In this document: one piece after another, positions 17,302 through 51,194 of the stretch | Layout of the letters: every line of letters starts with the position of its first letter | Numbering within the stretch: position 1 is the first letter of the stretch | NCBI GenBank assembly: GCA_029027985.1 | Contig: CP119076.1 | Span: 1,922,001-1,986,000, forward strand | Length of the DNA: 64,000 nucleotides | Direction of reading: 5' to 3' | DNA from: Klebsiella aerogenes | Lineage (GTDB): Bacteria > Pseudomonadota > Gammaproteobacteria > Enterobacterales > Enterobacteriaceae | Made by a program: the position numbers and the translations under genes | Notes under the pieces: generated by a model | The model's input: the letters and a program-made list of their open reading frames with translations, nothing else | The model's database searches: none | Told to the model about the DNA's origin: nothing

Positions 17302-18987
17302 GTGAAAAAGGTTTGGCTAAACCGTTATCCCGCCGATGTTCCGGCGGAGATAAATCCTGACCGCTATCAATCCCTGGTTGAATTGTTTGAACACGCCACC
17401 ACGCGCTATGCCGATCAACCGGCATTCATCAACATGGGCGAGGTGATGACCTATCGTAAGCTGGAAGAGCGCAGCCGCGCTTTCGCCGCTTATCTCCAGC
17501 AGGGATTAGGGCTGCAGAAGGGCGACCGCGTCGCGCTGATGATGCCTAACCTACTACAATACCCGGTAGCGCTGTTTGGTGTTCTGCGCGCCGGGATGAT
17601 TGCCGTTAACGTGAATCCGCTGTATACCCCGCGCGAGTTGGAACACCAGCTCAATGACAGCGGCGCGGCGGCGATTGTGATCGTCTCCAACTTTGCGCAT
17701 ACCCTGGAAAAAGTGGTTGAGAAAACCCAGGTTAAGCACGTTATCCTGACGCGGATGGGCGATCAGCTCTCCACCGCCAAGGGAACGCTGGTCAACTTCG
17801 TGGTGAAGTACATCAAGCGACTGGTGCCAAAATACCACCTGCCGGACGCCATCTCGTTTCGTAGCGCCTTGCAGCAGGGCTATCGCATGCAGTATGTGAA
17901 GCCGGAAATCGTCGCTGAAGACCTGGCCTTCCTGCAGTACACCGGCGGCACCACCGGCGTGGCGAAAGGGGCGATGCTGACCCACCGCAACATGCTGGCG
18001 AATCTTGAGCAGGTTAACGCCACCTACGGCCCGCTGTTGCACCGCGGCAAAGAGCTGGTGGTGACCGCGCTGCCGTTGTACCACATCTTCGCGCTGACTA
18101 TGAACTGCCTGCTGTTTATCGAACTGGGCGGGCAGAATCTGCTGATTACCAACCCGCGCGATATTCCTGGGTTGGTGAAAGAGCTGGCGAAATATCCCTT
18201 CACCGCGATGACCGGGGTAAACACCCTGTTTAACGCGTTGTTGAATAACAAAGAGTTCCAGCAGCTTGATTTCTCGTCGTTGCACCTTTCCGCTGGCGGC
18301 GGCATGCCGGTGCAGCAGGTGGTGGCGGAGCGTTGGGTGAAACTGACCGGGCAGTATCTGCTGGAAGGCTACGGCCTGACCGAGTGCTCGCCGTTGGTAA
18401 GCGTCAATCCGCATGATATCGACTATCATAGCGGCAGCATTGGCCTGCCAGTACCCTCAACCGAAGCTAAGCTGGTGGATGACGATGATAACGAAGTCGC
18501 GCCGGGCGAACCGGGCGAACTGTGCATCAAAGGACCGCAGGTGATGCTGGGTTACTGGCAACGCCCGGATGCCACCGATGAAATCATCAAAGACGGCTGG
18601 CTGCATACCGGCGATATTGCGGTGATGGATGATGAAGGTTTCCTGCGCATTGTCGATCGCAAAAAAGATATGATTCTGGTTTCCGGTTTCAACGTCTACC
18701 CGAACGAAATCGAAGATGTGGTGATGCAGCACTCCGGCGTGCAGGAAGTGGCCGCCGTTGGCGTACCGTCCGGCAGCAGCGGAGAAGCGGTGAAGATCTT
18801 CGTGGTGAAGAAAGACGCCACATTAACCGAGGAGGCGTTGGTGACGTTTTGCCGTCGTCACCTTACGGGTTATAAGGTACCGAAGCTGGTGGAGTTCCGC
18901 GATGAGTTGCCGAAATCCAACGTCGGTAAAATTTTACGACGAGAACTTCGTGACGAAGCCCGTGCTAAAGTAGACAATAAAGCCTAA
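17302..18987 (+). CDS. fadD: Long-chain fatty acid-CoA ligase FadD
   Basis: Inner-membrane-associated acyl-CoA synthetase that activates imported long-chain fatty acids, coupling uptake by FadL to beta-oxidation. 561 residues, as in E. coli. The ATP/AMP signature [12 protein letters not shown] is near residue 213 and the FACS motif [26 protein letters not shown] near 431-456. The chosen start is the GTG at 17302 ([14 protein letters not shown]) with GAGGTGATG before it. The frame is open from an ATG 33 bases upstream but without conservation. Confidence 0.96.
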
Positions 18988-19006
18988 GCAACGAGTGAGT
19001 CGCCTG

Positions 19007-19030
19007 ACGCCGGCTAAGCCGGCGTTTTTT
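19007..19030 (+). terminator. fadD terminator, also the stem-loop plus U-run in front of rnd
   Basis: ACGCCGGC-TAA-GCCGGCGT followed by six T residues. It stands 19 bp past fadD and 27 bases before the TTG start of rnd. In E. coli a GC stem-loop with a U-run in the rnd leader was reported to be needed for rnd translation, so the same DNA may serve both genes. Confidence 0.85.
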
Positions 19031-19056
19031 ATGGGCGCAAGTTAAGAGAGTAAGAT

Positions 19057-41419: not shown

Positions 41420-43540
41420 TTAGAAATCGTAGCCTACGGTCGCCGTGACGCTACGTTCCGCTCCCCAGTAGCAGTTGCCGGTGCCGTAGCAGCCGGAAAT
41501 ATACTCGCGATCGCCGAGGTTATTGGCGTTTACCTGCACGTAAGCGCCTTTCATCGCTGGCGACCAGGCGCCAAGGTCAGCGCGCGCCATCGCATCCACT
41601 AGCGTGACCGACGGCAGACGCTCGGTATTGGCGTCATCCGCCCACTGCTTACCGATATAGCGCACGCCAGCGCCGATGCTAATCCCCGCAGGCAATTGGT
41701 AATGCGCCCACAACGAGGCCATCTGGTCCGGCGTCAACTGCGGTGTATTGTTATCGGTGCCGTCTTTGGTGTCCTGAAAGCGCAGGCGGTTCCAGGTATA
41801 GGAGGCAATCGTGCTCAGCTGCGGCGTAATCTGGTTATGCGCCTCCAGTTCTACGCCCTGCGAATGGACTTTCCCGGCCGGAATATAGGTTGCGGTGGCG
41901 ATGTTCGGATCGCGGGTGGCGACATCCTTCTGCGTCAGATCGTAGATAGCGATGCTGTACAGGTCGCTGCTGCCTGGCGGCTGGAATTTCAAACCCGCCT
42001 CCACCTGTTCGGCCGTCGTGGGTTTTAAGGGCTTGCCGTCGGCGCCCGGCAGCATCGCCGGGGTAATCGCCTGACTGTAGCTTAAGTAGGGCGAGAGCCC
42101 ATTGTCGAGGGCGTACAGCAGTGAGGCGCGGCCGCTAATGTGATCGTCGGAGCGGCGATTTGACGTGCCCCAGGTATCGCTAACCTGCTGTGAAACGATC
42201 CGGTCATAGCGCCCGGAAACATCAACATGCCAGCGATTCCAGACCATTTCATCCTGCAGATACAGCCCGGTCTGATAATAACGGCGGTTATTGTTGTCGC
42301 TCCAGGTCACGGTATGCCCGGTTTGCCGGGTGTAGCCGGTGAACGGGTTGAGCGGTGCCGCGCTGCCCGCGCCGGTCCAGAGATCATTGCGGAAGCGGTG
42401 ATATTCGGCGCCGAGGATCAGCGTATGCGCCAGCTCGCCGGTATTGAAGTCGGCGCGCAGGCGGTTATCGGTTGACCAGGCGTCCAGCGACCCGCGTGAG
42501 CCGCTGTAGCCGCGGGAGAGCATATCGCTGTCGCCGACCCAACCGACCTGATAGACCTGATCCAGTGAGACGTTGGTGTGGGTATAGCTACCGGCGGAAT
42601 AAGCCGACCAGACGTCGCTGAACTGGTGATTAAATTCATAGCTGTAGATCTGCTCGCGGCGCTGGTAGCCATCGCCCGGATCGCCTTCGTTGGTGCCGGG
42701 AGAGAGCTTACGACCATTGTGCGCGTAGCGGGTGCCGTCCAGCGGCAGAGAGCCGTGGTAGCCGCCGGAGGGGTCTTTTTGCAAATAGGCGCGCAGCAGC
42801 AGTGAGGTATCGCTATCCGGCTGCCATAACACGGAAGGCGAGATCGCGTAGCGTTCTTCGCGGGTATGGTCATACTGCGTGTCGCTGCTGCGGGTCATGC
42901 CGATCAGCCGCCAGGCCCACTGATCATTGATGGCATCGGTATAATCGAAGGCCGCGCCCTTGGTGTTTTGCGTGCCACCGGTTAGGCGGAAGTGGCCCTG
43001 CTGGGTGAACTGCGGGCGTTTGGAGGTCAGGTTGACTACGCCGCCCGGCACGCTCTGGCCGTAGAGCGCGGAAGAGGGGCCGCGAATAACATCGACGCGT
43101 TCGATAAACCACGGATCGATTTGCAGAACGTTATGGCTGCCGCCATCACTCATCAGGCGCATGCCGTCGAGGAACAGGTTATCGACATCGCCGCCGTGGT
43201 AGCCGCGCAGGGAAATCGTATCGAAGCGCGTCGCGCCGCCGCCAAAGCTGGAGTAAACCCCCGGCGTGTACTGTAGCGCCTGGCTGACGGTGTTGGCCCC
43301 CTGATCGGCGATCTGCTGGCGGGTGATGACCGAAACCGACTGCGCGGTGGTGATCAGCGGCTGGTCGGTTTTGCTGGCCCCGGTAGAGGTTTTCGCGTTG
43401 TAACCCTGAGTCTGCGCGCTGGCGGAGTCGTCAGGCTGCGCGGTCACCACCAGAGTTTCTTCCGCTTGCGCGGCGAGAGGAAAGGCGGCGGCGAACGCGC
43501 ACACCAGCGCTGAGCGCTTAAAGTAAACGGATGAGATCAT
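41420..43540 (-). CDS. TonB-dependent siderophore receptor, FoxA/FhuA type
   Basis: 706-residue outer-membrane receptor. After the signal peptide (ending FPLAAQAEE) a TonB-box-like EETLVVTA is followed by the plug domain, with RFDTISLRGY, VIRGPSSALYGQSVPGGVVNL and a 22-strand barrel. The end CYGTGNCYWGAERSVTATVGYDF, with its Cys pair and terminal Phe, is characteristic of hydroxamate receptors such as FhuA and FoxA, so ferrioxamine or ferrichrome is the likely ligand, unproven. The ATG at 43540 has AGGA upstream. A Fur box lies 77 bp before it, implying iron repression. Confidence 0.87.
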   Translation of the reverse strand: MISSVYFKRSALVCAFAAAFPLAAQAEETLVVTAQPDDSASAQTQGYNAKTSTGASKTDQPLITTAQSVSVITRQQIADQGANTVSQALQYTPGVYSSFGGGATRFDTISLRGYHGGDVDNLFLDGMRLMSDGGSHNVLQIDPWFIERVDVIRGPSSALYGQSVPGGVVNLTSKRPQFTQQGHFRLTGGTQNTKGAAFDYTDAINDQWAWRLIGMTRSSDTQYDHTREERYAISPSVLWQPDSDTSLLLRAYLQKDPSGGYHGSLPLDGTRYAHNGRKLSPGTNEGDPGDGYQRREQIYSYEFNHQFSDVWSAYSAGSYTHTNVSLDQVYQVGWVGDSDMLSRGYSGSRGSLDAWSTDNRLRADFNTGELAHTLILGAEYHRFRNDLWTGAGSAAPLNPFTGYTRQTGHTVTWSDNNNRRYYQTGLYLQDEMVWNRWHVDVSGRYDRIVSQQVSDTWGTSNRRSDDHISGRASLLYALDNGLSPYLSYSQAITPAMLPGADGKPLKPTTAEQVEAGLKFQPPGSSDLYSIAIYDLTQKDVATRDPNIATATYIPAGKVHSQGVELEAHNQITPQLSTIASYTWNRLRFQDTKDGTDNNTPQLTPDQMASLWAHYQLPAGISIGAGVRYIGKQWADDANTERLPSVTLVDAMARADLGAWSPAMKGAYVQVNANNLGDREYISGCYGTGNCYWGAERSVTATVGYDF

Positions 43541-43616
43541 GCCATAATCCTGAATAGCGCGGTTTGGCACTCCTGTGCGCCGCCGCGGAAAACAAACGAA
43601 ACACTTTTTCGTTAAA

Positions 43617-43635
43617 AATAATGCGAATTATTATC
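43617..43635 (-). promoter_or_regulatory. Fur box upstream of the siderophore receptor
   Basis: AATAATGCGAATTATTATC matches 15 of 19 positions of GATAATGATAATCATTATC, centred about 86 bp before the receptor start codon. Confidence 0.8.
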
Positions 43636-43713
43636 GTTTGCTTTTGCATGATCAAGCGAATGCCGTATAAATTCAGCGAACACGGTGAAAAAATTAACGG
43701 CAGCCGCACGAAC

Positions 43714-43945: not shown

Positions 43946-44590
43946 TCAGCGTTGGCTTTCCAGTCGTAACATGGCCAACGCCCGCCATGGCGCGGCAAGA
44001 AACGGCATCGCCGACAGCGCCCATAGCTCTTCATCACTCCCCCGGTGGTTAAACACTATTCGTTGTACTCGGCTGAGCGGCCAGCCTTCAGCAGGGCGAT
44101 CGATAAGAATAAACGTATCATCGCAGCCAGTTTCCCCTGGCGTGACAACACGATAGAACCAGCCGTTGCGTGACTGCTGATGCATGATGTCCGGCGCATT
44201 AGGATCTTGTAATCGTTCGGCCATCGTCTGGCAGGCGACTCGGCCCCAGGAGACCTGAATTTCCGCGCTGCCGAGGCGAAAAACGTCGCCCGGACAGACG
44301 TCGTTTTCCGTCATCCCGCGGGTGGAAAAGTTCTCGCCGAACAGCCCGGTGTATAGCGCCTGGCCGCTCAGCGCCGGGTAGCGTTCGCGCCAGAAATCGT
44401 AATGCTCCAGCGCATAATGCATCAGCGCGCAGTCCGGATCCGGGAAGTGCTCCTGAATACCGTTTTCCGCTTCCAGGCCGTGGGTTTCGAGACGTACGCG
44501 GCCGTGAAGTGTCGTTTTGCGTTGCGTACCATCGGCCTGACGTCGGTTACCTAAAATGGCCTTCAGCCTGACTGAAAGATTTGCGTTCAT
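43946..44590 (-). CDS. MOSC-domain protein (YiiM-like)
   Basis: 214 residues. The MOSC fold is related to the C-terminal domain of molybdenum cofactor sulfurase and to E. coli YiiM, which reduces N-hydroxylated base analogues with a molybdenum cofactor. Conserved features are HYALEHYDFWRERYP, FGENFSTRGMTENDVCPGD, and a Cys in WGRVACQTM at the place of the cofactor-ligand Cys of YiiM. GGAG lies six bases before the ATG. It is last in the ModE-boxed operon, 33 bp after the TonB receptor. Its presence there supports a molybdenum theme. Confidence 0.83.
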   Translation of the reverse strand: MNANLSVRLKAILGNRRQADGTQRKTTLHGRVRLETHGLEAENGIQEHFPDPDCALMHYALEHYDFWRERYPALSGQALYTGLFGENFSTRGMTENDVCPGDVFRLGSAEIQVSWGRVACQTMAERLQDPNAPDIMHQQSRNGWFYRVVTPGETGCDDTFILIDRPAEGWPLSRVQRIVFNHRGSDEELWALSAMPFLAAPWRALAMLRLESQR

Positions 44591-44623
44591 CGTTGACTCC
44601 CTGATTCCGCCGTGGAACCGTAT

Positions 44624-46594
44624 TTAAAATTGATATTCGACGCCGGCCCAAAAATTACGTCCCTCTTCTACAAATCCTTCGCTGTAGTAATAGCGGGTAT
44701 CGAACAGGTTATTGACCGAGGCATTGACGCTGAAACCGCGGCCAATCGCGTAATCGGCCCGCAGATGAGTAATGGCAAAACCCGGCGCGCGCTGGGAACC
44801 ATCGCTATTGCTGTAGCTGGATGAGCGGGCCTCTTCCGACAGCGTCAGGCGTAGTGGTTCTATCGGCTTAAGGGTCAGCCAGGCGGTTAAGGTCTGATTC
44901 GGCAGGTCGGTGACTTTCCCCGCTTCCTGGCGTTTTGCATCGGCGTGTATCAGGCCATAGCTCAGCCCAACATCCAGTAGCGTGAGCGGCGATCCTTTAA
45001 TCCCTATATCAATCCCGCTGTAATCGACGCGCCCACTGTTTTGATTCTGCACGGTATCATCATCAATATTGATCGCCAGAATCGCATCGCTGACCCGGTT
45101 GTACCAGCCGCTAACCTCGTAGCTCCAGCTGTCGTTAATATGGCCATTCCAGGTGAGATCCACGCCGCGGGCGCGTTCCGGTTTCAGCTGCGGGTTGACC
45201 AGCGCGACCTGATCTTTTGCCGGTTTTGAGGTGGTGTAGCGCTCTTTGAGCGTCGGGAAACGGGTACGATCATACCAGGACAAGGCAAGGGTGTCCTGGC
45301 TGGCAAAGTGATAACGAGCCATGGTTTCCCAGTTAAAGGCGCTTTGCCGGTTGTCGGCATAATGGGTCACGCTGCCGTCGTTTTCGTGCTTTTTGCCTTC
45401 AAGACTATTTCGCCAGTCGTAGCTGATGCCGGCGACGATATCGAGATCGTCGGCGGCGGCCCATTGATATTCGCTGGCGACCGACCAGGTGCGATCCTGA
45501 TAGCGATCGTAGGGACCATTTACCGCGCTTTTTTCGCGATGAACATCATCTTTCCAGTTTACCGCCAGCGAAAGCTGGTCGCTGTCGCGAACATCCGCCG
45601 AGAGCTGTAGACCTGCGCCGGTGCTGTAGTCATCGTAATGACTGTAGTTACCTTTTTTGTTGTTGAGGTCGGTAAGGGTGTTGTACATCAACAGCGTATT
45701 TTTAAAGGTATCGTGGTACAGGCGGCTTTTCAGGGTAAAAGCGTCGCCAAGATGAGTTGTTCCCTGATAGTAGTAGCTTTCCTTGTCATATTCCGGCCAC
45801 TGCCAGTAACGTGATTTTTGGCTGCTGGTGCCAGCATACGGCGGATTCTGCTTTTCGCCGTCCTGCTTAATGTAAGTGAAAGCATATTCGTCATTAGCGC
45901 GCGGCGTGAAGCCCAGTTTAATGATGCCGCGCTTATCGTCGCTGGCGGAGTTGGCCATTTTGCCATCTTCACCGGCGATCGAATTGTTGACGCCATGCGG
46001 CAGACCGAGAAAATCCTGCTTGAGGCGGCTACCGCTGAGCTGGATATAGCCAAGATCGTTACTGGCGCCAAGCGACGCGTGGGTATCGAAGGCGTTATCT
46101 TTACTGCGACTCCACCCCTGGCGATAGCCGACGCTGGCCTCCAGCGGTTTGCTCGGCCGCGGGGTGGTAATGTTAATCGCGCCGCCCATCTGGTTGGGGC
46201 CTTGTAGTAAAGAGGAATAGCCTTTGGAGACTTCGACCGACGCAATATCGGAGGTGAGAAAACGGCCGAGGTCGAGATTGCCATCGTAGGGGACGTAAAT
46301 CGGCACGCCGTCAAAAAAGACCGGTACCTGGCGGCCGTCAAAACCGCGTACTTTCACCTGGAGTTCGTTGCGGCTGCCGGCTTTTTGCATGATCACGCCG
46401 GGAACCACCGATAGCGCGTGGGCGACGTCGTTTTTATCCAGAGACTGCATCATCTCCTGGCCGAGAATATTGGTGGCTGCCGCCGGTACCGGACTTGACC
46501 AGACGGTCATTGACTCTTCGGCCGCCGCTGACCAGGCGGACTGATTGATTGCTAAACCCAGAGCGGTATAAATAACGCTGTTCCTGATTTTCAT
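44624..46594 (-). CDS. TonB-dependent outer-membrane receptor of the molybdenum-type operon
   Basis: 656-residue receptor. Signal peptide MKIRNSVIYTALGLAINQ to AWSA; TonB-box-like ESMTVWSSP; plug domain with VPGVIMQKAGSRNELQVKVRGFDGRQ and VEVSKGYSSLLQGPNQMGGAINI; then the barrel, ending GRNFWAGVEYQF with terminal Phe. It is unlike the FoxA-type receptor nearby and lacks its Cys pair. No Fur box precedes it; it is co-transcribed with ABC transporter, methyltransferase and modD genes under a ModE-like site. I infer that it imports a chelated molybdenum or tungsten species; the ligand is unknown. Confidence 0.85.
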   Translation of the reverse strand: MKIRNSVIYTALGLAINQSAWSAAAEESMTVWSSPVPAAATNILGQEMMQSLDKNDVAHALSVVPGVIMQKAGSRNELQVKVRGFDGRQVPVFFDGVPIYVPYDGNLDLGRFLTSDIASVEVSKGYSSLLQGPNQMGGAINITTPRPSKPLEASVGYRQGWSRSKDNAFDTHASLGASNDLGYIQLSGSRLKQDFLGLPHGVNNSIAGEDGKMANSASDDKRGIIKLGFTPRANDEYAFTYIKQDGEKQNPPYAGTSSQKSRYWQWPEYDKESYYYQGTTHLGDAFTLKSRLYHDTFKNTLLMYNTLTDLNNKKGNYSHYDDYSTGAGLQLSADVRDSDQLSLAVNWKDDVHREKSAVNGPYDRYQDRTWSVASEYQWAAADDLDIVAGISYDWRNSLEGKKHENDGSVTHYADNRQSAFNWETMARYHFASQDTLALSWYDRTRFPTLKERYTTSKPAKDQVALVNPQLKPERARGVDLTWNGHINDSWSYEVSGWYNRVSDAILAINIDDDTVQNQNSGRVDYSGIDIGIKGSPLTLLDVGLSYGLIHADAKRQEAGKVTDLPNQTLTAWLTLKPIEPLRLTLSEEARSSSYSNSDGSQRAPGFAITHLRADYAIGRGFSVNASVNNLFDTRYYYSEGFVEEGRNFWAGVEYQF

Positions 46595-46619
46595 TTTTAT
46601 TATTCCTGTTTTTGTTTTT

Positions 46620-47474
46620 TTATTGCGAGCTATCCATCTGCAGGCTGACCTGAATATCGGCCGGCGGCGCGTACCATGGCGCGGAAGTGATAAATAGTTC
46701 GATGCCACAATCGAGATAATGAGGAAGGGTGCTTAAAGTAATGCCGCCAGCGATCGCCAGCGTACAGCGCGGGGCGAGGCACTGCGCCCGTAGCGCGATA
46801 TCGCGGGCCTGCTGTGGGGTAAATTTATCCAGTTGCAAAATATCCGGAGCCGCCTCCAGTGCGGCCAGCGCTTCCTCAACGTTGTCTGCTTCAACGGCGA
46901 CCTTTTTTTCCGGCGCGCGGCGTCGTAGCTGTTTGATCGCCGCAGGCCAGTCGTTGTCGGGAGTCAGAAAATGGCGGTGGTTGGCGAAGAGCAGCAGCGT
47001 TTCCGCACACCCGGCACGATGGATAATTCCGCCGGCGGCGATAATCGCCTGAGTGCCTAACAGCCGCGTGCCGGGGATCGCTTTACGGGTACAGGCTATA
47101 TGCCCATTGGGCAGTCGCTGATGCAATACCGCCAGCATCTGCGCCACATAGGATGAGACGCCGCAGCTCCATTCGAGTACGTTTTGCACCGCTTTCCATC
47201 CCTGGTGCAGCGCTTCAGCGCGGCCGTTAGCGCACAGCAAGATATCGCCCGGGCCGGCCTGTGCGCCATCAAACGCTTGCTGTGAAACCGTCAAACCGAG
47301 GCTTTGCAGCATCTGCACCGCCGGGGCGATCCCGCTGACGCAGCCACCTTGTCGAAGGCGCCAGGTCATCACCCCGGCTTTTTCGCCTATAGCCAGCGCG
47401 CGCGTCGTTAAATCACCGCCACTGATATCCTCCATCAACCAGCTATCGGTGAGCGCCTGGGGGAAATAGATCAT
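46620..47474 (-). CDS. modD: ModD protein (NadC-like phosphoribosyltransferase fold)
   Basis: 284-residue protein of the ModD family, a paralogue of quinolinate phosphoribosyltransferase NadC found with molybdate transport genes in other bacteria; its reaction is not established. Visible: N-terminal DSWLMEDISGGDLTTRAL, the family motif CTRKAIPGTRLLGTQAI, IIHRAGCAETLLLFANHRH, and VAVEADNVEEALAAL. Its ATG overlaps the stop of the methyltransferase gene (ATGA), so translation is coupled. The TonB receptor follows after 25 bp. Confidence 0.85.
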   Translation of the reverse strand: MIYFPQALTDSWLMEDISGGDLTTRALAIGEKAGVMTWRLRQGGCVSGIAPAVQMLQSLGLTVSQQAFDGAQAGPGDILLCANGRAEALHQGWKAVQNVLEWSCGVSSYVAQMLAVLHQRLPNGHIACTRKAIPGTRLLGTQAIIAAGGIIHRAGCAETLLLFANHRHFLTPDNDWPAAIKQLRRRAPEKKVAVEADNVEEALAALEAAPDILQLDKFTPQQARDIALRAQCLAPRCTLAIAGGITLSTLPHYLDCGIELFITSAPWYAPPADIQVSLQMDSSQ

Positions 47475-48274
47475 GAGGCGGCCCCGCATTGCCAGGAAAT
47501 CAGCGCCCAGTCGCGGGTGGGCGGGGCGATGCGCTGCGGATCCTGCTGGCGATACCAGTGCTGAAGGCGGGCGCGTTCGTCATCATCAAGTACGCCAAGC
47601 GTCCACTTCACGTTCTCTTCGAAGCGTGCGAAAGTGCTGTTGTCCTGCTGGCAGTTCGGGCCGCGAATAAAATCGACCTGTGCGTGAATACCCATCTGAT
47701 ACAGTACGTTCAGCGCATAGATGTAGTTTGGAAGTTCGACCACCTCGCGGCCCAGCGCGCGCTGGATGGCCGGCGACATAAACCACGGGCTTACCAGATG
47801 GGTGGTGTAGACGCGAAGTCTGGCCTGACGGTTGAGCTTCTCCATCGCCGATTGCATATCGATAACCAGCGTAGAACGTGAAGCGACGGCGATATCGCAG
47901 CGCGGCAGGTCATCCCACGACTCCTCCCACGCCCGGCGGTGCCAGCGGACGTTGTCGATGTTACGCGCGGCGGCGCGGCGCTGGGCCACCGCCAGCATCC
48001 CCTCGCTGTAATCGACGCCGTGCACCTGAGTGAGCTTATCGGCCAGCGCCAGCGCAACGGTACCGGGTCCACAGCCCATATCAAACAGGCTTTCGGCGTC
48101 GGTTAAATCGATTTTCTCCAGCAGTTGCAGTAAATAGCTATCGCTGGGGCGGGCGCAGTCCGTGGCCATTTTTTCCGCGCGGGCATCCCAGTGCGCGGGG
48201 GATTTCTCGGTTCGCCCGGCGAGCTTCAGCTGCTGGCGGTAGAGTTCGGCAAAATCGATATCATCAATGAGCAT
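47471..48274 (-). CDS. Class I SAM-dependent methyltransferase
   Basis: 267 residues. Motif I is SLFDMGCGPGTVALALA near residues 60-76 and motif II VHGVDYSEGMLAVAQRR; the rest is the usual Rossmann methyltransferase fold with an extended C-terminal part that I cannot assign. Start ATG two bases after the ATPase stop; stop overlaps modD. Because it is locked between transport genes, it may methylate a small chelator or modify a pathway intermediate. That is inference; it could also be a regulatory or detoxifying enzyme. Confidence 0.8.
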   Translation of the reverse strand: MLIDDIDFAELYRQQLKLAGRTEKSPAHWDARAEKMATDCARPSDSYLLQLLEKIDLTDAESLFDMGCGPGTVALALADKLTQVHGVDYSEGMLAVAQRRAAARNIDNVRWHRRAWEESWDDLPRCDIAVASRSTLVIDMQSAMEKLNRQARLRVYTTHLVSPWFMSPAIQRALGREVVELPNYIYALNVLYQMGIHAQVDFIRGPNCQQDNSTFARFEENVKWTLGVLDDDERARLQHWYRQQDPQRIAPPTRDWALISWQCGAAS

Positions 48275-48276
48275 AA

Positions 48277-49041
48277 TTATCCTTCAACGTAAGAGTGACC
48301 AAGGTGGCGGTGGATCTGCGCCGGCGTGACGCCATAGAGCTCGGCAAGGGCGCTGACGCTGAGCTGTTCCTGCGGCGAGCCGCTGCTAACTTGTCCGTTC
48401 GCTTCGACGCGGATGACCCGATCGGCAATCGCCAACGCGTGCAGAGGATGATGGGTCGACATCAGCAATGTGACGCCGCGCTGGCGTAGCTGACGTAAGG
48501 CATCGAGCAGGCGGATTTGGTGACCGAAATCGAGGCTGGAAGCAGGTTCATCGAGTAACAGCAACCGCGGCTGCTGAACCAGCGCGCGGGCGATTAATGT
48601 CAGTTGGCGTTCGCCGCCGCTGAGGGTTGACCAGCTACGTTCGGCGAGATGAGCAATTCCAAATGATGAAAGCTGGGCCAGCGCTATCTCACGATCGCGC
48701 GGCGCGGGTTGGGTAAAGGTATTCAAATGCGGGCTGCGGCCCATCAGCACCATATCGATGACGCTAAAAGCGAAAGCGCCATCGTGGGCCTGTGGAACCC
48801 AGGCGATCGCGTTGGCGCGTTCGCGCGATGACATCCTCCCGATAGCGGTACCGTCGAGGGTTATCTCGCCGCCGTGTAGCTTAAGCAGGCCAAGTATACT
48901 GCGCATTAGCGTCGTTTTTCCGCTACCGTTTGCCCCCAACAGGCAGCAAATTGTCCCGGCGGATAAGGTAAAAGAGACATTGTTCAGAACCGTGCGTTGG
49001 GCGTAGCCGACGCAGGCCTGACGAACGGCAAGTAACGTCAT
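48277..49041 (-). CDS. FecE/MolC-like ABC transporter ATPase
   Basis: 254-residue ATPase of the iron-chelate/B12/molybdate (FecE, BtuD, MolC) group. Walker A GANGSGKTT, Q-loop WVPQAH, signature LSGGERQ, Walker B LLLLDEPASSLD, and H-loop STHH are all intact. The start ATG overlaps the permease stop (ATGA). It powers import from the periplasm through the permease encoded just upstream in the transcript. Confidence 0.9.
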   Translation of the reverse strand: MTLLAVRQACVGYAQRTVLNNVSFTLSAGTICCLLGANGSGKTTLMRSILGLLKLHGGEITLDGTAIGRMSSRERANAIAWVPQAHDGAFAFSVIDMVLMGRSPHLNTFTQPAPRDREIALAQLSSFGIAHLAERSWSTLSGGERQLTLIARALVQQPRLLLLDEPASSLDFGHQIRLLDALRQLRQRGVTLLMSTHHPLHALAIADRVIRVEANGQVSSGSPQEQLSVSALAELYGVTPAQIHRHLGHSYVEG

Positions 49042-50021
49042 AGCGGACTCCGTCGTAATAGCAGAGCGAGGAAGAATGGCGCGCCGATAAATGAGGTCAG
49101 AATGCCGAGCGGGATTTCCGTCGCGCTGATGCCACGGGCGAGTGTATCGGTGAGCATAAGTAGTATTGCTCCCAGCGTCATGGCGACCGGTAGCAGCCGC
49201 TGATGGTTGCTGCCAGTAAGCAGCCTGCCGATGTGTGGGACAATCAGCCCAACCCAGCCGATGATGCCGGCAATCGCCACCGCGCTGGCGGTGGCCAGCG
49301 TGGCGCACAGCACGATAACCAGCCGCAGGCGCGCGACGTTTAATCCCAGCGCGCGGGCTTCGTCATCGGAAAGCGTCAGGACGTTGAGTCGCCAGCGCAA
49401 CAGCCATAGCGGCAAGCAGCCGATAACCATCAGCGGGGCGGCAAAAACCAGATCGCCGGTGGTGATGTCAGCAAGCCCGCCCAGCAACCAGAAGGTGATA
49501 GTTGGCAATTGGGTATAAGGATCGGCGATGATTTTAATCAGCGATATCCCCGCGCCGCATAGCGTCCCTAATGCGATTCCGACCAGTACCAGGGTCAGTA
49601 CGGGCTCGTGGCGGGTGGCGGCGCGCGCGATAACCATCACGCCGCCGACCACCGCCAGACCGCCGAAGAACGCGCAAAGCTGGATAAACCACGCGCTGCC
49701 TCCACTCCAGATGGCGAAGCAGGCGCCGAGACCTGCACCGGCGGCGACGCCGAGGATATCGGGTGAAACCAGCGGGTTACGAAATATACCCTGGTAGGCG
49801 GTCCCGGCGGCGGAGAGCGACGCGCCGATCAGCAATGCGGCAACAATTCTTGGCAGGCGAATTTGCCAGAAGACGATGCTGTCGCGCGTGTTGGCGTTGG
49901 AAGAGAACAGCAGATCGTAAAGGCGCGCGGGCGTCAGATCCCAGGGACCGGTCAGCAGCGCGATGCTCAGGGTGAACAAAAGGGCCGCGAATAACGTGAA
50001 GCTCAGGCTAAGATTTTTCAT
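49038..50021 (-). CDS. FecCD/MolB-like ABC transporter permease
   Basis: 327 residues with about ten membrane helices, FecCD family. Hallmarks are GRNPLVSPDILGVAAGAGLGA-like FRNPLVSPDILGVAAGAG, LWLLGGLADIT, VAIAGIIGWVGLIVPHIGR and EIPLGILTSFIGAPFF. The same family includes siderophore, B12 and the H. influenzae MolB molybdate permeases. Its ATG overlaps the stop of the binding-protein gene and its stop overlaps the ATPase start, so the three genes are translationally coupled. Confidence 0.9.
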   Translation of the reverse strand: MKNLSLSFTLFAALLFTLSIALLTGPWDLTPARLYDLLFSSNANTRDSIVFWQIRLPRIVAALLIGASLSAAGTAYQGIFRNPLVSPDILGVAAGAGLGACFAIWSGGSAWFIQLCAFFGGLAVVGGVMVIARAATRHEPVLTLVLVGIALGTLCGAGISLIKIIADPYTQLPTITFWLLGGLADITTGDLVFAAPLMVIGCLPLWLLRWRLNVLTLSDDEARALGLNVARLRLVIVLCATLATASAVAIAGIIGWVGLIVPHIGRLLTGSNHQRLLPVAMTLGAILLMLTDTLARGISATEIPLGILTSFIGAPFFLALLLRRSPL

Positions 50022-51046
50022 GCTGGACTCATAAGCTCCGCGTAGCGTTGAGAGGAGAGCGGCGTATGCCAGAACAGCGCGCTATAGCGAGTAAGGTCGG
50101 CTTGCAGTGTGGTTTGAATTTGTGGATCCAGCCAGCCGTGCAGGCGGCGCAGACCAGCCAGGCGGTTAATCCCGGGCGGGGCATCCAGCCAGCCGAAGGG
50201 TAAACCATCAAGCAGCAAGACTTTCCCTTTCGCCACGGCGTCGACGGCTCGCCATCGCGGATCCTGAGTAATATGCCGCCAGGTCGTCGCCTCCTGGGTC
50301 AAAATAATATCCGGCTGCCACTGCAGCAGATTTTCCAGCGACACCTGACTTAACCCCGTGCGCCCGGCGGCGCGAGCGACGTTGGTCAGCCCCAGGAGTT
50401 CCGCCGCTTCGGTATGTAATGATCCGGCGAGCCCGGTTTCCAGCCCCTTCGCGCCGCGGGCGGCGTAGAAACTATTTGCGGCGCCAGCCGAATGGGAAAA
50501 GGCGAGGGCGTCGTTAATAAAACGCTGCGCCAGCGCCGCTTGCGCCTGAGTTCGCGTCGGCCGATCGACAATTTCGCCAATGGTTAATAGCTGCTGCGCC
50601 GACGTTGCCAGCGTACCTCTGATTAACACCCAGGGAATGCCGCTGCGCGCGCCGACCCGCCTGGCCTGTGATATCCAGCTTTCATCCGCGTTGCCGCAAT
50701 CGACGATCAGATCGGGCGCAAGCGCAACTAGTGTCTCCAGCGATAGGGTGCTGGCGCGCCCGGCGAGACGTCCGAGTTTGCGTAGATGGGCAATCTCTTG
50801 CGCCAGCGGAGGATGCGGCAGGCGGGAAAAATCAAAAGAGGAGAAACCTAATAGCTTTTCCGGCGCGGCGGCGAGTAGCAGCATATCGGCCGGCGCGCCG
50901 GCGCTAACGATACGCTGAATAGTCGCGGGCGCGGGGATGCTCCCGAGAGTAAATGCTGGGGACGCTGTGCTTGCCCAGCCTTTGATGCTCGGTAAGCACA
51001 GCGTCAGGCTCAGCGCCTGCAGAAAGGTACGGCGGGAACATGGCAT
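50018..51046 (-). CDS. Tat-exported periplasmic binding protein (MolA/FecB-like)
   Basis: 342-residue cluster-A-III substrate-binding protein of the siderophore/B12/molybdate type. It begins MPCSRRTFLQALSLTLCLPS: the SRRTFLQ twin-arginine motif suggests export by Tat. The binding-protein fold has PEKLLGFSSFD, LVALAPDLIVDCG, LQWQPDIILTQE and a long helix backbone. An in-frame TTG three codons upstream is possible; the ATG at 51046 has GGA at better spacing. First gene of the seven-gene operon, with the ModE-like site 33 bp before it. Confidence 0.87.
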   Translation of the reverse strand: MPCSRRTFLQALSLTLCLPSIKGWASTASPAFTLGSIPAPATIQRIVSAGAPADMLLLAAAPEKLLGFSSFDFSRLPHPPLAQEIAHLRKLGRLAGRASTLSLETLVALAPDLIVDCGNADESWISQARRVGARSGIPWVLIRGTLATSAQQLLTIGEIVDRPTRTQAQAALAQRFINDALAFSHSAGAANSFYAARGAKGLETGLAGSLHTEAAELLGLTNVARAAGRTGLSQVSLENLLQWQPDIILTQEATTWRHITQDPRWRAVDAVAKGKVLLLDGLPFGWLDAPPGINRLAGLRRLHGWLDPQIQTTLQADLTRYSALFWHTPLSSQRYAELMSPA

Positions 51047-51078
51047 ATGTTTCAATCCGGAAACAAAGAGATTAAAAA

Positions 51079-51106
51079 ATCGCTATATATTTACATATAT
51101 AACGCA
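51079..51106. promoter_or_regulatory. ModE-type operator before the metal-uptake operon
   Basis: Half-site ATCGCTATATA (51079-51089), a 6-base spacer, then TATATAACGCA (51096-51106). The ModE consensus as I know it is ATCGnTATATA-N6-TATATAnCGAT. The left half matches fully, the right half at nine of 11 positions, and spacing is exact. ModE-molybdate represses modABC from such sites. The element is 33 bp before the start of the binding-protein gene, where it would overlap or abut the promoter. Confidence 0.8.
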
Positions 51107-51194
51107 ATCACTATTGCGTGAGATCAAAAATCGCCGGGTTTGCCAGAGGATTACCCCGTAAGGATGACGCAGAGTCGATAACGTCGTGAAGGAA

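Follow-up and report, generated by a model that had tools for sequence, protein, structure and literature searches.

Does an enteric bacterium possess a TonB-dependent route for molybdenum across its outer membrane? The question is raised by a seven-gene operon in a stretch of 64,000 nucleotides (nt) of Klebsiella aerogenes DNA (assembly GCA_029027985.1, contig CP119076.1, positions 1,922,001 to 1,986,000; hereafter the window), in which genes for a TonB-dependent receptor and an ATP-binding cassette (ABC) importer lie behind a ModE-type palindrome. An original prediction, made from the DNA letters of the window, had proposed that this operon likely imports molybdenum or tungsten across both membranes. 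Our argument starts from the gene content, the palindrome, its position relative to a promoter-like hexamer and its conservation, all of which are directly observed. Based on these, we consider it likely that the operon encodes a ModE-controlled TonB-type importer, expressed under molybdenum scarcity, for molybdenum in complexed form. The seven genes are co-oriented on the minus strand, from position 51046 to 43946 of the window, and are listed below in their order of reading together with the two upstream elements.

51122..51127, minus strand: -35-like hexamer TTGATC, 17 nt before the palindrome
51081..51104, no strand assigned: ModE-type palindrome CGCTATATA-N6-TATATAACG, a pattern match, 28.2 bits by an independent matrix
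50018..51046, minus strand: Peripla_BP_2-type periplasmic binding protein (PF01497), twin-arginine-like signal SRRTFLQ
49038..50021, minus strand: FecCD-type permease (PF01032, 297.1 bits)
48277..49041, minus strand: ABC ATPase (PF00005, 106.3 bits)
47471..48274, minus strand: class I S-adenosylmethionine-dependent methyltransferase (PF13649)
46620..47474, minus strand: ModD, a quinolinate phosphoribosyltransferase paralogue (TIGR01334, 389.7 bits; curated cut-off 178.85)
44624..46594, minus strand: TonB-dependent outer-membrane receptor (PF07715, Plug, and PF00593, barrel, both above cut-off)
43946..44590, minus strand: MOSC-domain protein of the YiiM type, an optional member (PF03473 and PF03475, YiiM_3-alpha)

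The palindrome lies 34 nt from the ATG at 51046, confirming the ModE-like operator that had been placed 33 bp ahead of the first gene. In the 5.0-Mb genome, which encodes ModE itself (486.8 bits, cut-off 369), the strict pattern CGNTATNTA-N6-TANATANCG was found at 5 places and at 0 in the reversed control. These strict sites stand ahead of moaA, dmsA, narU, a DUF2623 gene and the seven-gene operon. Compared with CGTTATATA-N6-TATATAACG, the operon palindrome has 1 mismatch and the modA site 2. With up to 3 mismatches allowed, 7 places were found in the genome versus 5 in the control, and weak ModE-like sites are therefore not significant alone. Strict palindromes were also seen upstream of DUF2623 (YghW-type) small-protein genes in two genera (L001:1501-1827 and, by eye, L101:1183-1524; L and G numbers are our handles for loci and genomes).

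Conservation of the site was analyzed with a matrix whose training set was limited to the modA, moaA, dmsA and narU sites and which had therefore never seen the operon. The threshold was set to 15.9 bits, the 95% value of the per-locus maxima in 144 Markov shuffles (median 9.5, maximum 23.9 bits). Of 48 loci, the window included, 43 had a site of 16.9–28.2 bits at most 400 nt upstream of the gene for the binding protein, the receptor or the methyltransferase, and elsewhere in the same 830,655 bases a single site exceeded the threshold. The 48 loci include one with a receptor remnant only (L083, from the same genome as L073) and were counted without the apparent duplicates L078 and L079 (of L020 and L027), the short loci L001-L004, L030-L032, L038-L045 and L051-L066, and L080-L082. 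Thus, the check proposed with the original prediction, a search for the same gene order with a ModE motif in other enterics, has been run with a positive outcome. In addition to the site of the binding-protein gene, 7 of the 48 loci have a separate one for the receptor gene, and receptors located apart from the importer (L067 and L073) are likewise preceded by a ModE site. Five further loci were scanned apart: the E. coli loci L084 and L085 each contained a site, and among L086-L088 one of three loci did, with two sites in Proteus and none near two sphingomonad receptors. The genome of L073 and L083 (G580) contains a degraded copy of the operon, with a receptor remnant, no match to the ATPase and a ModE site; about 159 kb away lies the separate receptor gene with its own site.

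The position of the palindrome suggests a mode of control. A TTGA(T/C)N hexamer precedes it by 17 nt at 23 sites and by 18 nt at 3, that is, at 26 of 46 (ties were assigned to 17 nt, and the count has no shuffle control). Of the 18 rows aligned, 16 have TTGA at the same position, counting one that contains a 7-nt gap. The -10 element would then sit in or near the left half-site of the palindrome, and this spacing suggests repression by ModE, whose binding at the palindrome we infer from the pattern. At modA, bound ModE blocks the promoter; the predicted occupancy here should do the same, and the operon should therefore be made at scarce molybdate. The operon promoter is absent from the listing of a general promoter scan. 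Control by Fur was rejected, since no Fur-like site was found in nine upstream regions: the best match was 9/19 upstream of the operon, below the shuffle mean of 10.6, and 10–13/19 at eight other loci, none beyond its own shuffles. Trehalase (TreA) and FoxA-like siderophore receptor genes flank the operon upstream and downstream, respectively, and the latter (41420-43570) has a Fur-like site of 15/19 (not shuffled) in its upstream region (43466-43650). The only Rfam match in the window at gathering scores was sroD (18946-19031, 94 bits).

Profile matches to Pfam and NCBIfam recovered all seven families that the original prediction had named, in one direction as stated. The four ATGA-type or near-zero junctions are three 4-nt ATGA-type overlaps (binding protein/permease, permease/ATPase and methyltransferase/ModD) and a 2-nt gap between the ATPase and methyltransferase genes; spacers of 25 nt and 33 nt precede the receptor and MOSC genes. 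The MOSC gene, predicted as the seventh member, is indeed present here, but it was detected in only 9 of 25 related loci and was therefore rejected as a core part and is listed as an optional end gene. We place the start of the binding protein at ATG 51046, which opens a twin-arginine-like signal, MPCSRRTFLQ (by eye); the listing of open reading frames has TTG 51055. An RR pair is found in the N-termini of the binding proteins from 22 of the 25 relatives and KKR in two from Shewanella, while L010, with its truncated start, was left unjudged. The protein would thus be a candidate for twin-arginine translocation (Tat). It matches Peripla_BP_2 only and is not of the ModA family; modA is located elsewhere in the genome. 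The receptor carries a TonB-box-like stretch, ESMTVWSS (by eye), and its closest solved relatives are CirA and BtuB, both distant, with CirA nearest. It scored 69.9 bits with the BtuB profile TIGR01779 (cut-off 599.7) and 122.3 bits with the TonB-dependent siderophore receptor profile TIGR01783 (cut-off 223.5), and the scores for B12, haem and siderophore families were under the NCBIfam cut-offs.

A tree of 36 chosen receptors placed those from enterics, Shewanella and Pseudomonas aeruginosa in one clade of 25 (support 100/100). A ModE site is present in 24 of these, and in the 25th the contig is cut inside the operon. Several distant loci have links to molybdenum of their own. In L046 (G165), a gene of the ModE family is divergent from the receptor operon, with a perfect palindrome between them. 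Its product has helix-turn-helix and Mop domains (ModE_repress 99.8 bits, cut-off 98.5; Mop 116.8 bits, cut-off 55) and scores 161.8 bits versus the 369 required for the E. coli-type equivalog. In L048 (G451), a gene for a 128-residue ModE-domain protein lies ahead of the receptor gene (94.2 bits, just under the cut-off of 98.5). The clusters of L046 and L047 contain genes for DUF2478, a domain associated with molybdate operons. The receptor encoded on a P. aeruginosa plasmid is 46.6% identical and has a perfect palindrome 14 nt before its start. Its gene overlaps an Oxidored_molyb gene and adjoins moaA, followed by one gene, narI, narJ, narH and the gene for the nitrate reductase alpha subunit. 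The Oxidored_molyb gene (L034:10956-11504) encodes a single-domain protein of 182 residues with a signal-peptide-like start (by eye). The proposed molybdenum link is thus backed by the comparative ModE sites, the ModE-family neighbours and the receptor tree. As separate observations, the distant receptors at L067:6211-7909 and L035:5066-9899 adjoin genes for solute-binding proteins of another kind (by NCBIfam and by annotation, respectively), and in L067 two ModE sites lie between the two genes.

The operon differs from the molybdate systems already known. MolABC of Haemophilus influenzae (MolA = HI1472), which transports molybdate or tungstate, likewise consists of a FecCD-type permease, a Peripla_BP_2-type binding protein and an ATPase. 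The operon was rejected as MolABC because the MolA orthologue is another gene of the same genome: the K. aerogenes MolABC set contains a binding protein that is a clear orthologue of HI1472 (E 1.7e-141), whereas the operon binding protein matches this MolA at 29% over 218 residues and HI1472 with a profile E of 6.9e-14. The MolABC set has a ModE-like site with 3 mismatches, lacks an adjoining methyltransferase or ModD gene and is adjoined by a ModA-like gene (256.3 bits, below the cut-off of 288). It is located at 6160-9722 of L080 (C1:2118000-2137000 of the same genome), with a TonB siderophore receptor gene nearby. In G789, the strict pattern is matched exactly upstream of a MolA relative (63%). 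The combination of a FecCD system with a ModE site thus recurs, and the seven-gene operon would be a variant with an outer-membrane receptor of its own. With ModABC, encoded in K. aerogenes by a locus where modE adjoins modA (L031), the operon shares a ModE palindrome over the promoter and the molybdate logic. The families of its binding protein and permease are different and ModABC has no outer-membrane receptor; since no ModA-family binding protein was found in the operon, this identity was rejected as well. CirA, FhuABCD and BtuB-BtuFCD resemble it in combining a TonB-dependent receptor with a FecCD-type ABC importer, and FhuD carries a Tat signal. The operon differs from them in its ModE site, the absence of a Fur-like site, the presence of ModD and a methyltransferase, and family scores below cut-off.

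In the open-licence literature, the matches listed included no description of a TonB receptor under ModE; the term "ModE" also matches "mode", and regulon databases, which may hold an earlier prediction, lay outside the scope of this search. The nearest printed idea among these matches is an Fe-Mo cluster proposed for Acidithiobacillus ferrooxidans, for which the available text of PMC2631029 describes outer-membrane receptors adjoining the gene for a molybdate-binding protein. That cluster differs in its ModA-like binding protein, Fur box and nitrogenase link, and the word ModE is absent from the main text as available. In other sources, MolABC is named a lower-affinity molybdate system (PMC7759655), tungsten tolerance of Azotobacter is linked to catechol siderophores (PMC6448029), and a role as molybdophore is put forward for 8-hydroxyquinoline-2-carboxylate (PMC7356571). 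A nitrogenase-specific role in K. aerogenes was rejected, as its genome has no match to PF00148.

Several observations weigh against a molybdenum importer as the explanation, or limit its reach. Five of the 48 loci have no site. In two of these, the contig starts inside the permease gene (L018) or the binding-protein gene lacks its 5' part (L010), and the other three are distant relatives (L035, L047 and L050). Two further alphaproteobacterial receptors are also without a ModE site, and the remaining 11 deep rows of the tree, which include long branches of unsure placement, are mixed (6 with a site and 5 without). The enteric sites are not independent, because many of these loci share descent; the independent weight therefore comes from P. 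aeruginosa, Shewanella, the Proteus-like group (L068-L072 and L086), L067 and L073. A ModA gene was found in all 11 genomes tested for it, and the operon therefore probably supplements ModABC. Of 11 receptor genomes tested, the methyltransferase was found in 6 (absent from G777, G451, G224, G454 and G424), and the binding protein was found in 7 of 11. Among the 11 genomes with ModD and no receptor, 7 were examined, and in 3 of them a methyltransferase-ModD pair occurs with no importer homologue within the 14–16 kb inspected. Finally, the model assigns no clear role to the MOSC protein. The separate pairs are:

L090:6542-8268: methyltransferase-ModD pair apart from an importer
L092:6915-8609: methyltransferase-ModD pair apart from an importer
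L093:6623-8383: methyltransferase-ModD pair apart from an importer, directly preceded by a ModE site (2 mismatches)

The two enzymes were analyzed further. Both are single-copy in the K. aerogenes genome and encoded in the operon. At E 1e-30, the methyltransferase was found in 2 of 274 genomes of the class, both times inside such an operon, and ModD was present in 16 of 17 receptor genomes versus 27 of 246 genomes of the family overall. The other four ModD-only genomes examined contained, respectively, ModD with an ABC ATPase gene, genes resembling modA and modB, and a ModE site (2 mismatches); ModD beside the Fe-only nitrogenase genes anfHDK and a Mop protein, with two ModE sites (L091:3085-9357); ModD with ABC genes identified by eye alone and a weak site of 3 mismatches; and a divergent ModD with no such molybdenum context. 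Since the pair is seen apart from the importer and receptor genomes occur without the methyltransferase, the pair need not process the ligand of the receptor. These findings weakened our early idea that the two enzymes serve only that ligand; the pair would therefore act in molybdenum physiology without depending on the receptor in every case. ModD scored 132.5 bits with the profile of the NadC quinolinate phosphoribosyltransferase, below the cut-off of 198.4. It has K94 at the aligned position of R105 and F163 at that of K172; all 12 ModD rows share these two residues, and the TRK, HR, E and D positions are conserved (we assume the residue numbering and active-site roles of the phosphoribosyltransferase). 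These replacements suggest that quinolinate is probably not the substrate of ModD. For the methyltransferase, PADLOC reported a partial mad2 match, PHROGs generic methyltransferases, and the solved-structure profile three weak matches, two of them to precorrin methyltransferases.

The operon is built from the families of siderophore uptake, its receptor is closest to CirA among those solved, and RefSeq labels the binding protein of E. coli as an iron ABC transporter protein, all of which would fit an ordinary importer of a ferric siderophore, haem or cobalamin with an incidental ModE site. This explanation is, however, very improbable given the lack of a Fur-like site in the nine upstream regions, the ModE site in 43 of 48 loci and also before the lone receptors of L067 and L073, the scores below the B12, haem and siderophore cut-offs, and the ModD and ModE-family neighbours. 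The metal could also be tungsten, since ModE responds to tungstate too and ModE and MolABC may not discriminate between the two metals. Nevertheless, AFOR_C (PF01314) was not found in the K. aerogenes genome, while modA, moaA, dmsA and narU, genes for molybdate, cofactor and molybdoenzymes, carry ModE sites, which makes a tungsten-specific importer highly unlikely here.

Two other explanations keep molybdenum and change the cargo or its origin. If the cargo were the molybdenum cofactor or a pterin-dithiolene instead of a metallophore complex, the operon would act in salvage like BtuB-BtuFCD, in which the MOSC protein would carry the cofactor and the methyltransferase would release the metal through S-methylation, for which urothione formation is a parallel. 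MOSC and Oxidored_molyb, the latter with its signal-peptide-like start (by eye), belong to families that bind the cofactor and come last in the gene set, and the receptor is distantly BtuB-like too. Since only 9 of 25 loci contain MOSC, no gene for cofactor processing or for a nucleotidase was recognised in the operon and the free cofactor is unstable in air, we regard such salvage as unlikely. The methyltransferase and ModD could instead make a small molybdenum ligand that is exported and returns via the receptor, completing a metallophore cycle. The presence of both enzymes behind the ModE site, and of the pair as a unit with its own site in L093, would be consistent with this. On the other side stand the absence of an exporter or other biosynthetic gene from the operon, the pairs without an importer homologue in 3 of 7 ModD-only genomes and the 5 of 11 receptor genomes without the methyltransferase, and we doubt that such a cycle operates.

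The 25 related loci are from Klebsiella, Raoultella, Enterobacter, Citrobacter, Yokenella, Escherichia, Serratia, Shewanella, Erwinia, Pantoea and Symbiopectobacterium. All have the permease, ATPase and methyltransferase genes, 24 the binding-protein gene (cut in L018) and 22 ModD. In the family, the distribution of the receptor is patchy: it was found in 17 of 246 genomes, representing 14 of the 154 genera, and is missing from three further listed genomes of the genus to which the window belongs. In E. coli, the operon is present at a query coverage of at least 80% in 2094 of 5426 complete genomes (approximately 39%). E. coli EcN (assumed to be Nissle 1917) is among the carriers. The operon is located between treA and ymgE in strain A16; K-12 MG1655 lacks it and has about 620 bp with ycgY at that place instead, and no ModE site was found in the 10-kb stretch of MG1655 at up to 5 mismatches. 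The ratio of nonsynonymous to synonymous substitution rates (dN/dS) was 0.08–0.20 between two E. coli and 0.05–0.15 between the window and Klebsiella indica. Damaged copies were also noted: one E. coli O157:H7 record lists the methyltransferase gene (L084:3227-4039) as a pseudogene containing an internal stop, and the receptor frame of an Escherichia albertii record (L019:8001-9968) ends after 421 codons, beyond which the match continues.

In the importer of complexed molybdenum that we favour, ModE would repress the operon and low cytoplasmic molybdate would lead to its expression. The receptor would pass a complexed molybdenum species across the outer membrane, and the Tat-exported binding protein, the FecCD permease and the ATPase would move it across the inner membrane. 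That both membranes are crossed, as had been predicted, follows from the families present, a receptor and a FecCD-type ABC importer. In the cytoplasm, the methyltransferase and ModD may free molybdenum from its ligand or serve the general molybdenum economy. The molybdenum cargo is a reading of the gene context; that it would be complexed is suggested by the thought that bare molybdate passes porins. Diffusion of molybdate through porins is stated for Salmonella in a passage of PMC8264917.

A bolder version, which we put forward tentatively and regard as possible without favouring it, is that the operon is the first dedicated TonB-dependent molybdenum acquisition system, ModE-controlled and taking up a possibly pirated molybdophore complex, in which the methyltransferase and ModD would alkylate or phosphoribosylate donor groups of the ligand, inactivating it and so releasing the metal. 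Such a system, in about 39% of complete E. coli, would have been missed because K-12 lacks the operon. If an active outer-membrane route is true, competition for molybdenum, as for iron, could arise in gut or soil where the metal is sufficiently scarce or bound, and the use of molybdophores by enterics would become testable. The ModD family, in turn, gains a recurrent partner enzyme and a context.

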